This document shows, in pieces, positions 4,617 to 12,200 of a DNA stretch of 12,515 nt. The number at the start of each line of letters is the position of its first letter. Positions within the stretch are counted from its first letter, which is position 1. The translations under genes and the position numbers were made by a program. The stretch spans positions 1 to 12,515 of the forward strand of contig JBFLYA010000116.1 in NCBI GenBank assembly GCA_040757115.1, read 5' to 3'. The DNA comes from a bacterium (GTDB taxonomy: Bacteria; UBA9089; CG2-30-40-21; SBAY01). Below the pieces are notes generated by a model. It was not told the origin of the DNA. It saw only the letters and a list, made by a program, of their open reading frames with translations, and did not search any database.

Positions 4617-4895
4617 GCCTAATTACGGACACGGATACCGGACACGATTCACAAATTTTCCACCTGTGCGGTTAAATGTAAAATGGATAATGTAAAATGA
4701 GAAATGTCCAATGAAAATGTATAACTGAAAGGTAATGAGTCTTGCGAAGGACTAAAATTTCCCATTTTTCATTTTCTATTTTACATTTATTTTTCCTTTG
4801 CGTCTCTGCGATGAATTAGTCTAATCGCACAGGTCGCGAATTTTCAGTGTTTCATCCGTGTCCATCTGTGGCTGAATAATTACCTAAATAGTTAC
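4617..4895. repeat. Nested inverted-repeat element abutting uvrC
   Basis: The outer arms are imperfect. GGACACGGAT and ACCTGTGCGGTTA near the left end have reverse-complement partners in the 4815-4870 region. Inside lies a second palindrome of AAATGTAAAATG against CATTTT...TTTTACATTT. The right end carries GGCTGAATAATTAC and then TAAATAGTTAC (4885-4895), a variant of the 11-bp terminal repeat of the element at 10653-10936. It is probably an old relative of that element whose left terminus has decayed. No gene is seen. Confidence 0.6.
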
Positions 4896-7058: not shown

Positions 7059-7143
7059 AAAAGTTACCTGCTTGAAAAGACTAATAAAATCAACGCTAAA
7101 TTTTATCCGAGAGCGTTCTAAAACTAAAAGGAGGAATAAAAAA

Positions 7144-8580
7144 ATGAGTAAGGTATTGACAATGGGCATCACAATAATGGTAGTTTCATTATTTATGCTC
7201 TTGACAGTAAGTCTATCCTATGGTGGAAGTGGATTACCATGTCAAAAATGGCAATGTCAGGACTGTGGAAAGATATGGGAATGTGCTAAAAACACATGCC
7301 CTAATAGAAACTGTAAAGGATACGGTAAGGGACGAGGATTACCATGTCAAAAATGGCAATGTCAGGATTGTGGAGAGATATGGGAATGTGCTAAGAACAC
7401 ATGCCCTAATAGAAACTGTAAAGGATACGGTAAGGGACGAGGATTACCATGTCAAAAATGGCAATGTCAGGATTGTGGAGAGATATGGGAATGTGCTAAG
7501 AACACATGCCCTAATAGAAACTGTAAAGGATACGGTAAGGGACGAGGATTACCATGTCAAAAATGGCAATGTCAGGATTGTGGAGAGATATGGGAATGTG
7601 CTAAGAACACATGCCCTAATAGAAACTGTAAAGGATACGGTAAGGGACGAGGATTACCATGTCAAAAATGGCAATGCCAGGACTGTGGAAAGATATGGGA
7701 ATGTGCTAAAAACAAATGCCCTGTGCCTACATGTGTTGCTCTGCCACCCTTTGAAGAAGAAAAAAGCGTTTGCAGTATTCCATTCACTGCTTTGGAGGGA
7801 GAGACAGCAATTAATACAAAGTATACGGGTAAGATTACAAGTATCAAATTTACTGCTGTTGATGGTAAAGAACTTACCTCAGAAGATGTACCAGGTGTAA
7901 AGGTAAAAGAGCGTGATGGTTGGACTATTCTGGATATCCCTAAAGGAATAGTAATTGTTGGAGGAATAATAACAGGAGTAGATAGAATCATAAAGATTCT
8001 CTCACCAAAGGAAAAAACAGAGGTTACCACCACTCCTCCAAAAGATAAAATTATACCAACTGACGGAGAAATTGAGGTTACAAATGGTAATATTGATGAA
8101 ACAATAACTGGAGAAGATATCTTTGATATTACTAAGCCAGGAGAGAATATAGTTTCTATAGTTAAGCCAGAGACTAATGGAGAATACCCAATAGACATAA
8201 TTGCCGCAAGAATGGATGAAATTAAAGTAGTAGGTACTGATATACCCTTAGATGTGATAGGTCCAGAGGGGATATGTAAGGTTAAAGTGACAAAACCGGA
8301 TGCTCCTTCAATTAGTTCAGATGTTCCTTCCTGGGGATATAACCTTTCTATGCCACCAGTTACTCAAACAGGAATGCCAGTGCCAATTACTGCATATGTC
8401 TGTGGTGTTAAAGGTAAAAAAGTAGAGTTTAAATTCATCCCTGAGGAAGGTCAGACTATTGAACCACTAATGGTTACCTTATCTACGGAGGAACTTGGAA
8501 AACCTATTCCTATCGCTAAATTAACTACCACTAAGATTGGACCACAAACACTAAATTGTGAAGTTGTTATTATAAAATGA
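7144..8580 (+). CDS. Secreted protein with five 35-residue cysteine-rich tandem repeats
   Basis: 478 residues from ATG 7144, chosen because AAGGAGG (7128-7134) lies 9 nt upstream; a TTG at 7072 in frame has none. Residues 1-27 form a Sec-type signal peptide (ITIMVVSLFMLLTVSLSYG), so the product is exported. Residues 30-193 are five repeats, each with Cys at repeat positions 4, 9, 12, 18, 23 and 28 (30 in all). The WQCQDCG and CPNRNC halves look like a zinc-ribbon or rubredoxin-like knuckle. The remaining ~280 residues are predicted beta-rich, with no family I recognise. The function is unknown; metal binding, disulfide-stiffened surface repeats or a stalk are possibilities. The gene sits first behind a strong promoter and upstream of an outer-membrane protein. 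Confidence 0.85.
   Translation: MSKVLTMGITIMVVSLFMLLTVSLSYGGSGLPCQKWQCQDCGKIWECAKNTCPNRNCKGYGKGRGLPCQKWQCQDCGEIWECAKNTCPNRNCKGYGKGRGLPCQKWQCQDCGEIWECAKNTCPNRNCKGYGKGRGLPCQKWQCQDCGEIWECAKNTCPNRNCKGYGKGRGLPCQKWQCQDCGKIWECAKNKCPVPTCVALPPFEEEKSVCSIPFTALEGETAINTKYTGKITSIKFTAVDGKELTSEDVPGVKVKERDGWTILDIPKGIVIVGGIITGVDRIIKILSPKEKTEVTTTPPKDKIIPTDGEIEVTNGNIDETITGEDIFDITKPGENIVSIVKPETNGEYPIDIIAARMDEIKVVGTDIPLDVIGPEGICKVKVTKPDAPSISSDVPSWGYNLSMPPVTQTGMPVPITAYVCGVKGKKVEFKFIPEEGQTIEPLMVTLSTEELGKPIPIAKLTTTKIGPQTLNCEVVIIK
7231..7719 (+). repeat. 105-bp tandem repeat, 4.7 copies
   Basis: Units start at 7231, 7336, 7441, 7546 and 7651; the last one diverges near 7719. Copies 2, 3 and 4 read identically base for base. 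Copies 1 and 5 share GACTGTGGAAAG and AAAAACA variants and differ from the middle ones. The unit is in frame (35 codons), so copy number can change without breaking the gene. The identical middle copies indicate recent expansion. Confidence 0.95.
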
Positions 8581-9545: not shown

Positions 9546-10631
9546 TTACACTTCTGCAGGGTGACAACAAATTTTCCTTAATTCTTCTATAAAATTTTTT
9601 ATATCATCTGTTGAAATTAACCCTACGGTGCCTATTCTAAAAACTTTACCTTTTAGATGTCCCTGGCTATTGTAAATGACAAATCCTTTTAATTTTAAAA
9701 GATGATGAAGTTTTTCAAAGGAAAAGCCTGCTGGTAGATAAACTGAGGTCATTGTATTAGAGAAAAGGCTTTCGTTAAGGAAAAATTTTAGACCTATTTC
9801 TTTTAATCCCTTTCTTAATAATTCAGCGATGTGTTTATAATGAGCAATTCTATTTTCTACCCCTTCTTCTAACAGTTCTAACAGTGCCGTTTTAAAGGCA
9901 TAAAAAACCTGAACCGCAGGCGTAAAAGGTGTCTCCTCGAGGTTTTCTTCGGATTCAAGATGAGTTAAAAGGTCATTATAAGATGCTTTTTTGCCGCCTT
10001 TTTTAATTTTTTCAATAAATCTTTCGCTTACAATCACAAAAGCCGCCCCCGGAACCCCTCTTATACATTTATGCCCCGAGCCCATAAGCACATCTATGGT
10101 TAACTGATTCAAATCTATTTCCTCGCCACCAATACTACTAATCGCATCAACTAATAGGAGTGTCTCATATTTCTGAGCTAAACAGGAGATTTCTTTTAGG
10201 GGATTTAAAAGTCCGGTTGAAGTTTCATGATGAACAATATAAATGGCATCGACATTGGTCGTTTTCAACCTTTCTTCTATGACTGTTAAATCCGGTAGAT
10301 TCCCCCAACCAAAATTTATCTCTTGAAAATTAACTTTATAAGTTATAGCAATATTTCTTGCTCTTTCTCCATAAACGCCATTAGAGATGATTAATAGATT
10401 TTTGATATTATCTGTTAGAGAGGCTATAACACTATCTATGGCTAATGTTCCAGAGCCAGTTAAAACTACACTCTTATACCCATTTTTAGCCTTGCCAACC
10501 TGGAGAAGAAGTTGGCGAATATCTGATAGAATCTGAGATGCCTCACTATCACGATGGCATATATCTGGTAGGGTTAGAGATTTTCTCACCCTTTCTGAAA
10601 TATTAGCCGGTCCTGGGGAAAAAATTATCAT
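9546..10631 (-). CDS. phnW: PhnW-like class V aminotransferase
   Basis: 361 residues, the normal length for the family. The PLP-binding features are Asp162 (LLVDAISSIGG) and the Schiff-base Lys188 (GSGHKCIRGVPG). The N-terminal FSPGPANIS, SVVLTGSGTLAIDSV, IISNGVYGER, VHHETSTGLLNP and C-terminal GFVIYNSQG...FRIGTVG blocks follow 2-aminoethylphosphonate:pyruvate transaminase (PhnW), which makes phosphonoacetaldehyde and alanine. Alanine-glyoxylate or serine-pyruvate aminotransferases are relatives, so the substrate is uncertain, and no phnX or phosphonate biosynthesis gene is visible. The ribosome binding site is weak (an A-rich stretch precedes ATG 10631). A MITE-like element begins 14 bp upstream of the start, separating it from cpaB. 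It is convergent with the barrel gene, 52 bp apart, with no obvious terminator. Confidence 0.8.
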   Translation of the reverse strand: MIIFSPGPANISERVRKSLTLPDICHRDSEASQILSDIRQLLLQVGKAKNGYKSVVLTGSGTLAIDSVIASLTDNIKNLLIISNGVYGERARNIAITYKVNFQEINFGWGNLPDLTVIEERLKTTNVDAIYIVHHETSTGLLNPLKEISCLAQKYETLLLVDAISSIGGEEIDLNQLTIDVLMGSGHKCIRGVPGAAFVIVSERFIEKIKKGGKKASYNDLLTHLESEENLEETPFTPAVQVFYAFKTALLELLEEGVENRIAHYKHIAELLRKGLKEIGLKFFLNESLFSNTMTSVYLPAGFSFEKLHHLLKLKGFVIYNSQGHLKGKVFRIGTVGLISTDDIKNFIEELRKICCHPAEV

Positions 10632-10652
10632 ATTTTATTTCTTTTTCATCCT

Positions 10653-10936
10653 GTAACTATTCACCCTGTAGGAAAGTAGGAGAGTAGGGAAGTAGGAAAG
10701 GGAAAGAAAATGAATGAGAAGTTATAAGGGAAAAGGGGAAAAACAGGGGAAAATGGGAAAAGAAAAAAGGAAATCACTTTTACCCTTTTCCCCAATTTTC
10801 CATTTTCCCTTTATTACACACTGAGCACTTACAAAATCTTAATTTATGCCGTTGTTGAGTATAGTATGAAGTATTTTCCCCTCTTCCTACTTCCTACTTT
10901 CCTACTTCCTACTTGCTTGGTATGCTGAATAGTTAC
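10653..10936. mobile_element. MITE-like element with TIRs and 8-bp target duplication
   Basis: The ends are perfect 11-bp inverted repeats: GTAACTATTCA (10653-10663) and TGAATAGTTAC (10926-10936). They are flanked by identical TTCATCCT at 10645-10652 and 10937-10944. The 284-bp interior is non-coding and itself a nested inverted repeat: GTAGGAAAGTAGG-type arms pair with CCTACTTTCCTAC, and inside them GGGGAAAA-type arms pair with TTTTCCCC. From family knowledge, ends beginning GTAA with 8-bp duplications are characteristic of IS66-family elements, so such a transposase may have moved it in trans. The intact duplication implies a fairly recent insertion. Confidence 0.85.
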
Positions 10937-11018
10937 TTCATCCTTTGAAAGACTTTATGTTGTCTTAGATTAAAGAGGTATAGAATTGATGTATTGCCTG
11001 AAGGGTTACGAATTAATA

Positions 11019-11885
11019 TTATCTCCACTCTAAGACCGCGGTTTCTTTTTTAGTCCCTTTATAAACATCTATCTGTTTAATTAGTTTTGATTCTACCTCA
11101 ATTGTTGGTGTTGGAGTGCCTGTTTTGATAACAATAGTATCTTTTGGTTTTTCTGGTGGTAAGTCAATTACTTCCGGTGGTGTTGCCCCATCGGTCCAGA
11201 CCAATGATTTAGAAGTTGGATGTCTAAGCGAGAGTCTAAGTTTTGAGGCTTTATCTGCGCCTAAAGCTAATTCTTCTGCCTCGCGTGGATAAACGGCTAA
11301 AGTCACGGTATCAAAAGCAAGGGGTGGTTTTTCCTCCGCCGTAACTTTCTTAGGTATAAATTGTTGACCCGTAGCTAAAACTATGGCTGATTGGACAATG
11401 GTCTTACTCACTAATTTTCCGGCAAAATCTGATTCAAATGTGCCAATAACATCTACCCTATCTCCTGGTGTGATTAAATAAGAAATAGCGCCCGGATTGT
11501 CAATCAGCAAAGTAATGGCTCTTCTTTCGGGTGGCACAATATACGCCAGCCTGCCAACCCCAAAGTAAATTTGTGAGGATAAAACTGGCGAGTTAGGATG
11601 GATGTTAACCTTTGCAATACCGCCCACCACACTCGTTAAAGAAGTAATTGCCTCTTTTGACACAGTTTCAGGTTCTAATTCCTTCAATGTCACCATGCCG
11701 GTATCAATCACCGTCTGAGCAGGAATTTCACCTACAGCAAAAACTACGCCGACCTTTTTCGGCTCTGGAACAGGTTCTTCTTTAACCACCGGCGGTTTTT
11801 TTTCTAAAGTCTTGAAATAAAATAATACCACCCCGCAGGTAATTAATCCTAATATAATCCCTATAATTATAAGCCTTGTACCCAT
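11019..11885 (-). CDS. cpaB: Flp pilus assembly protein CpaB/RcpC
   Basis: 288 residues. One N-terminal membrane segment (5-24, LIIIGIILGLITCGVVLFYF), a Pro-rich linker, a SAF domain (about 47-105: VVFAVGEIPAQTVID, then VVGGIAKVNIHPNSPVLSSQI) and an RcpC/CpaB domain (YIVPPERRAITLLIDNPGAI, then YLITPGDRVDVIGTF) are in the family order. A Pro/Thr/Lys-rich tail ends the protein. CpaB is a periplasmic part of Tad/Flp pilus machines, linked to the CpaC secretin. GAGGA (11891-11895) sits 5 nt before the ATG. Other tad genes are not in the window; on the left the next gene is phnW, so this copy may be separated from its cluster. It is probably transcribed from the promoter at 12211-12240 through a repeat-filled leader. 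Confidence 0.88.
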   Translation of the reverse strand: MGTRLIIIGIILGLITCGVVLFYFKTLEKKPPVVKEEPVPEPKKVGVVFAVGEIPAQTVIDTGMVTLKELEPETVSKEAITSLTSVVGGIAKVNIHPNSPVLSSQIYFGVGRLAYIVPPERRAITLLIDNPGAISYLITPGDRVDVIGTFESDFAGKLVSKTIVQSAIVLATGQQFIPKKVTAEEKPPLAFDTVTLAVYPREAEELALGADKASKLRLSLRHPTSKSLVWTDGATPPEVIDLPPEKPKDTIVIKTGTPTPTIEVESKLIKQIDVYKGTKKETAVLEWR

Positions 11886-12200
11886 TATCTTCCTCTCTCC
11901 TGAAAATAGACTACAGACCCTAGACTATAGACCAGGTAACCAATGAAAAGCAAGTTTATTTCCTCCTTAACAAAGGGGGTTAGGGGGTTGTCCTTCTCCC
12001 ATTTTCATTGCCCTTTGTGAGCCCTGGCTCATGTCCGTTTCCCCTGAAAATAGGTTATGGGACGCAGATTTTCGCAGATTATCAGGATGTATATTTAAAA
12101 ATCCTGAAAATCTGCGTTTATCTGCGTCCTATACTTTCCCGAACCACGAATCCCGAATCCCTTTTTTCGTATCTTAGTGATTTAGTGGCTGAATAGTTAC
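11886..12200. repeat. Repeat-filled cpaB leader with two hairpins and a TGAATAGTTAC end
   Basis: There is no gene here. CAATGAAAA (11941-11949) pairs with TTTTCATTG (12002-12010). A stronger hairpin has 29-nt arms at 12060-12088 and 12101-12129, with about 25 matching positions and a 12-nt AT-rich loop. TGAATAGTTAC at 12190-12200 is identical to the right terminus of the element at 10653-10936. No matching left terminus or duplicated target (right flank GACTGATT) was found, so this is probably an older or partly deleted copy. Confidence 0.7.

Follow-up and report, generated by a model that had tools for sequence, protein, structure and literature searches.

Insertion sequences (IS) of the IS66 family typically present GTAA ends and generate 8-bp target duplications. 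Duplications of this length are produced, for instance, by the IS66 elements ISPpa5a and ISPpa7 (PMC3281130). Intervening sequences (IVS) of 23S rRNA that contain an S23/IVP gene, as seen in Leptospira and Coxiella, span ~430-550 bp and comprise a long stem, formed by complementary ends, with a PF05635 gene in the loop (PMC4990558), PF05635 corresponding to the four-helix-bundle '23S rRNA intervening sequence protein'. Some 25 years after such IVS were discovered, their origin was still considered unclear, one hypothesis being that they are remnants of transposition (PMC4990558). Tandem repeats of heptameric words are described in two further reports, namely, GGGAATC in Xanthomonas and GGGGAYT in Nostoc (PMC4692102), and TAACTGA in Beggiatoaceae (PMC4679880), with those of Xanthomonas often arranged as convergent (inverted) pairs (PMC4692102). 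Neither text mentions a helix bundle or 23S, and the passages considered do not tie the repeats to PF05635 genes or transposon ends. In the literature covered, lying mostly outside subscription journals, heptameric repeats are never tied to IVS containing an S23 gene and no IS66-capped PF05635 elements are described; likewise, in literature outside subscription journals, no paper combines a 'four helix bundle protein' with 'inverted repeats'.

The window considered here, i.e., the whole 12,515-nucleotide stretch of DNA that was analysed, is part of contig C116 of a genome (G000) of 4.32 Mb in 462 contigs. Between a gene encoding CpaB (11019-11885, minus strand; TIGR03177, 3.9e-41) and one encoding a PhnW/AepZ-type aminotransferase (9546-10631, minus strand; TIGR03301, 2.9e-97, under the model cut-off of 360.8 bits) lies an element that is very probably a non-autonomous IS66-type transposon, gutted from a PF05635-bearing version and inserted after the split from a sister species (G001). 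The components of this element, together with other copies of its ends in the window, are as follows.

10645-10652, plus strand: left target duplication (TSD), TTCATCCT, present only once at the empty G001 site
10653-10936, no strand assigned: probable non-autonomous IS66-type (MITE-like) element, 284 bp, with a 97% identical copy bearing its own TSD elsewhere
10653-10663, plus strand: left terminal inverted repeat (TIR), GTAACTATTCA, with the same ends found on IS66 remnants
10668-10705, plus strand: left arm, tandem GTAGGAAA-type words
10710-10724, plus strand: remnant of a PF05635 gene start, ATGAATGAGAAGTTA, encoding MNEKL, as aligned with gene-bearing copies L159, L164, L165 and L166
10722-10863, plus strand: inner repeat of ~140 bp, hairpin TTATAAGGGAAAAGGG...GTTGTTGAGTATA, in place of most of the gene
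10864-10875, plus strand: remnant of the PF05635 gene 3'-end (GTA TGA stop and following bases), from alignment with gene-bearing copies
10876-10913, plus strand: right arm, made of AAGTAGG heptads in tandem, in reverse complement
10926-10936, minus strand: right TIR, GTAACTATTCA
10937-10944, plus strand: right TSD, TTCATCCT
12190-12200, minus strand: isolated copy of this end (GTAACTATTCAGCCACTAAATCACT...), partnerless within the window
4873-4895, minus strand: two degenerate copies of the end, lying at the uvrC 3' end (GTAACTATTTA and GTAATTATTCA)

The original prediction, made from this DNA alone, described 11-bp TIRs and a perfect 8-bp duplication at 10645-10944, surrounding a purine-rich nested hairpin. 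Both the ends, which are inverted and contain 0 mismatches, and the duplication are present. The nested purine/pyrimidine hairpin is real; the element folded as single-stranded DNA with z = -7.5, and 0 of 200 shuffles were equally stable. The outer arms consist of GTAGGAAA/AAGTAGG tandem words in inverted order, within which lies the second hairpin, with the first 3 bases of this inner repeat overlapping the gene-start remnant. The neighbors were also correctly named as cpaB and phnW, the latter called phnW-like here. The three checks suggested along with that prediction, namely, for further end pairs with 8-bp repeats, for an IS66-family transposase with the same ends and for an empty site in relatives, each gave a positive outcome. 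The TSD begins 14 bp from the phnW-like start codon, with 22 bp separating that codon from the element itself. The 284-bp element contains no PF03050 match and no transposase gene, and is accompanied by one 97% identical copy and by siblings.

When the corresponding site was sought in relatives, the DNA of G001, 98% identical, was seen to be continuous through the site and to contain TTCATCCT once, rather than twice. The window element is, as such, a genuine insertion, placed after the split from G001. In the proposed course of events, an IS66-family transposase would act in trans on the 11-bp GTAACTATTCA ends, a staggered cut at the target would leave the 8-bp duplication, here TTCATCCT, and entry between cpaB and the phnW-like gene would postdate the split from G001. 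The ancestor would have been longer, containing a hairpin whose arms are tandem ~7-nt words and whose loop encloses a PF05635 gene; most of that gene would then have been swapped for another hairpin repeat, with the gutted form subsequently jumping. The arms and gene would earlier have been a mobile unit in their own right, which the IS66 ends came to enclose.

The description of the element as gene-free applies to the window copy, whereas longer siblings bear genes. Siblings of 461-546 bp (L074, L081, L082, L085 and L140) contain a PF05635 gene, either intact or with stops, and the gene of sibling L159 matches both PF05635 (6e-35) and TIGR02436 (3e-33). In these elements, the gene is placed between inverted arms of ~7-nt words, and in siblings L159, L163, L165 and L166 lies within a stem-loop. 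The window copy retains the first five PF05635 codons, the last codon and the stop, together with the downstream bases from 10864, and is a gutted derivative of a PF05635-bearing element. A second gutted copy, 97% identical to the window element, is found in G000 (contig C150, 2910-3200) with its own TSD, TATAAAAA. Since the two copies occupy different sites and present different duplications, the gutted form has moved again as a unit. The inner repeat also occurs alone, at C285, C45 and C302 (94-95% identical); considered against IS200/IS605-type criteria, the four copies have common TTATAAGG...GAGTATA boundaries and a hairpin.

Several unrelated interiors were found behind ends having the same first 13 bases. 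The GxxExxY family (PF13366) accounts for 65 matches in G000, many within GTAAC-type ends and many truncated (L182-L211). Some capped PF13366 elements present duplications and a full-length gene, such as L192 (496 bp, open) and L196 (511 bp, one in-frame stop); other capped PF13366 elements are short remnants, with a KFDELSNRVIGCAI start seen in several copies of 208-236 bp. The first reading could not reveal that the element is what remains of a gene-bearing one, that many unrelated interiors lie under one cap, or that an intact transposase is not found today. While the mechanism is ordinary for a MITE, the interior is new, as is one cap serving many unrelated hairpins with small genes. The element matters because one short cap moves unrelated hairpins and because the PF05635 gene is tied to clear marks of transposition outside rRNA, providing a testable lead on the origin of the 23S rRNA inserts.

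The elements described here resemble the S23-gene IVS in the size, stem and looped PF05635 gene noted above, yet differ in being outside rRNA, in having transposon ends and duplications, and in being present in many copies. The window element, lying between cpaB and the phnW-like gene, is not in a 23S helix. GTAAC-capped IVS were sought in the 23S genes of the clade, with none being found, and the G000 23S gene contains only short stem-like extensions, lacking a gene or caps. Stem-like extensions of repeated words (e.g., GTGAGGAAGTGAAAAAGTGAGGAAGTGA) occur in 23S helices of the clade (L251, L250 and L252). Inserts of ~650-700 nt were also seen in the 23S genes of G002, which has two, and G014 (L252 and L253) at a TAACTAT/AACGGTCC site (also TAACTAT/AACGGTCCTAAGG); these are apparently homing-endonuclease introns. 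Avd, a component of diversity-generating retroelements, belongs to the same fold family and was matched weakly (bAvd, 3e-9; NF033474, 1e-8; both below cut-off), but neither a reverse transcriptase nor a TR or VR was noticed around the present elements.

Most PF05635 genes of G000 and of its relatives, whether capped or not, are flanked by inverted arms of short tandem words, with the word varying from copy to copy. A small-alignment scan of a collection of species genomes provided 80 PF05635 loci (L258-L337) from many phyla and some Archaea. With inverted arms being defined by at least three 9-mers shared when 200 bp of upstream sequence were compared with 220 bp of downstream sequence in reverse complement, such arms were detected at 43 of the 68 loci with enough flank, each with a locus-specific word, as compared to 3 of 67 when displaced flanks were used and 2.9% when flanks of different loci were combined. 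Upstream self-matches peaked at lags of 7 and 14 (0.39 and 0.36, respectively, versus 0.25). Similar arms, albeit of longer words, surround most of the 16 GxxExxY genes checked in G000. At two orthologous sites (L229/L162 and L217/L169), sister species differ in both the PF05635 gene and the arm word, although the flanks are 90-98% identical, and at a third, G001 contains a gene where G000 contains only arm remnants. From this pattern we infer a small hairpin cassette that may be enclosed by different transposon ends. It is also possible, if still tentative, that PF05635 genes, in bacteria and some Archaea, are the cargo of a distinct and widespread mobile cassette, the word of which is remade between copies and which re-enters the same sites with another gene and word, is captured by different transposon ends (here of IS66 type) and is the source of 23S IVS. 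Such arms, found around PF05635 genes in different phyla, would also unite two oddities that were reported apart, namely, heptameric repeats, which resemble the present arms in their tandem ~7-nt words, and multi-copy four-helix-bundle genes of no known function. The pattern is worth more interest than is the element itself, but a controlled survey is needed.

These same observations bear on the reading in which the inner cassette, comprising arms and PF05635 gene, is mobile by a route of its own with preferred sites, such that the IS66 ends are passengers or mark a hotspot and the duplications stem from older MITE insertions. In line with this possibility are the uncapped PF05635 genes that commonly lie between inverted word arms, both in G000 and related genomes and across many phyla, and the different genes and words at orthologous sites in sister species. 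So too is a 212-bp insertion specific to G001 (L242, 1174-1385), found 36 bp from the empty site, which presents other terminal repeats (..GTTCTCTAA..), a short duplication and a different core of inner inverted GTTGATA heptads. Still, in the family of the window element it was the whole capped unit that moved, with siblings having caps and their own duplications, and the gutted derivative was mobile despite the loss of the gene. This reading is considered unlikely.

Mobilisation of the window element in trans by an IS66-type enzyme, as had been proposed from its ends and duplication, is well supported by comparison of sequences, with cut-and-paste chemistry being the presumed route. That support comes from exact ends on IS66 remnants, a second IS66 with related ends and the 8-bp duplications of the family. 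In G014, a remnant (L147) presents exact GTAACTATTCA at both ends and part of a transposase (NF033517, 2.5e-45), while in G005 (L151), GTAACTATTCA appears as the right end, 199 bp past the transposase stop (NF033517, 1.3e-41). In G000, the left and right GTAACTATTCA ends are found on separate IS66 remnants, the right end (L035:856) lying 150-200 bp beyond a transposase stop and the left end (L075:14753; C21:29753) opening a stretch in which the first ~130 bases agree with those at the left end of L147. A second IS66 in G000 (L031) is bounded on both sides by GTAACCGTTCAGG ends, which match a sister class of caps. The five PF03050 (IS66 transposase) matches in G000 are all partial or broken, so that only remnants or interrupted copies, and no intact IS66 transposase, were found in this 462-contig assembly; the assemblies are fragmented, and an autonomous copy may be absent from them or have died out. 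No clean 8-bp duplication was seen around the IS66 remnants themselves.

As in IS66 IS and their derivatives, GTAA-type ends, 8-bp duplications (PMC3281130, for the duplication) and same-end remnants in the clade were thus observed. What differs is that the element and IS66 have only ~11-13 bp in common, and that the interiors are unrelated hairpins and small cargo genes, several kinds per cap. An internal deletion derivative of IS66 was rejected, given that the interiors share nothing with the IS beyond the cap. A MITE moved by another family that generates 8-bp duplications (e.g., of the IS256, ISL3 or ISAs1 type), with the likeness to IS66 ends being due to chance, is very improbable. Such a mover would fit with the decayed state of the TnpC-only type remnants and with several relatives being rich in ends yet lacking a detectable IS66 transposase, as in G008, G015 and G016, where 214, 165 and 40 end copies, respectively, are found with no PF03050 match at E<=1e-3. 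It would leave to coincidence the exact GTAACTATTCA ends on IS66 remnants in three genomes, the related GTAACCGTTCAGG ends flanking another IS66 in the same genome and the combination of GTAA ends with 8 duplicated bases.

Further copies of the ends are numerous. Within the window, GTAACTATTCA with at most one mismatch is matched 6 times, versus 0.34 expected, while across the genome, 391 exact matches were obtained, as compared to 7 for a reversed-pattern control. Elsewhere in the phylum, up to 411 end copies are found, with some close relatives having almost none. As anticipated, many further pairs flanked by 8-bp repeats were identified, the pair and duplication counts resting on 1.48 Mb of the 4.32 Mb, read in stretches. 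In this portion, 18 of 52 nearest exact end pairs present a perfect 8-bp duplication and 34 do not, so that a pair of ends need not represent an intact element. Among related-cap pairs (GTAA[CGT][CT][AG]TTCA) less than 3 kb apart in the same 1.48 Mb, 70 of 329 have at least 7 of 8 duplicated bases, as opposed to 0-6 when the left flank was slid by 1-3 bases. Dispersal of the pairs through gene conversion or recombination among repeats, as an alternative to transposition, might be argued from the 34 pairs lacking duplications, some of which have identical flanks, being inside other repeats, but in the face of 70 duplications versus 0-6 in controls and of the precise empty site in G001, this can be given hardly any credence. 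A CRISPR or REP/BIME reading was dropped, with no spacers having been noticed and with the ends and duplications fitting transposition.

Four capped elements lacking duplications (L067, L075, L084 and L104, with L090 in part) have the common flanks TTAAAATCTATTG ... TTTATTTCTATG and seem to have taken the place of the central part of a different capped element. Elsewhere in the window, the solo GTAACTATTCA end at 12190-12200 adjoins inverted arms of CGCAGAT words, and the region spanning 7072-8580 encodes a predicted protein with five near-identical, tandem cysteine-rich units (GLPCQKWQCQDCGKIWECAKNTCPNRNCKGYGKGR). Finally, UvrC stops at 551 residues, ~31 model positions before the C-terminus and exactly at the degenerate ends at 4873-4895, such that its helix-hairpin-helix end seems to have been lost.
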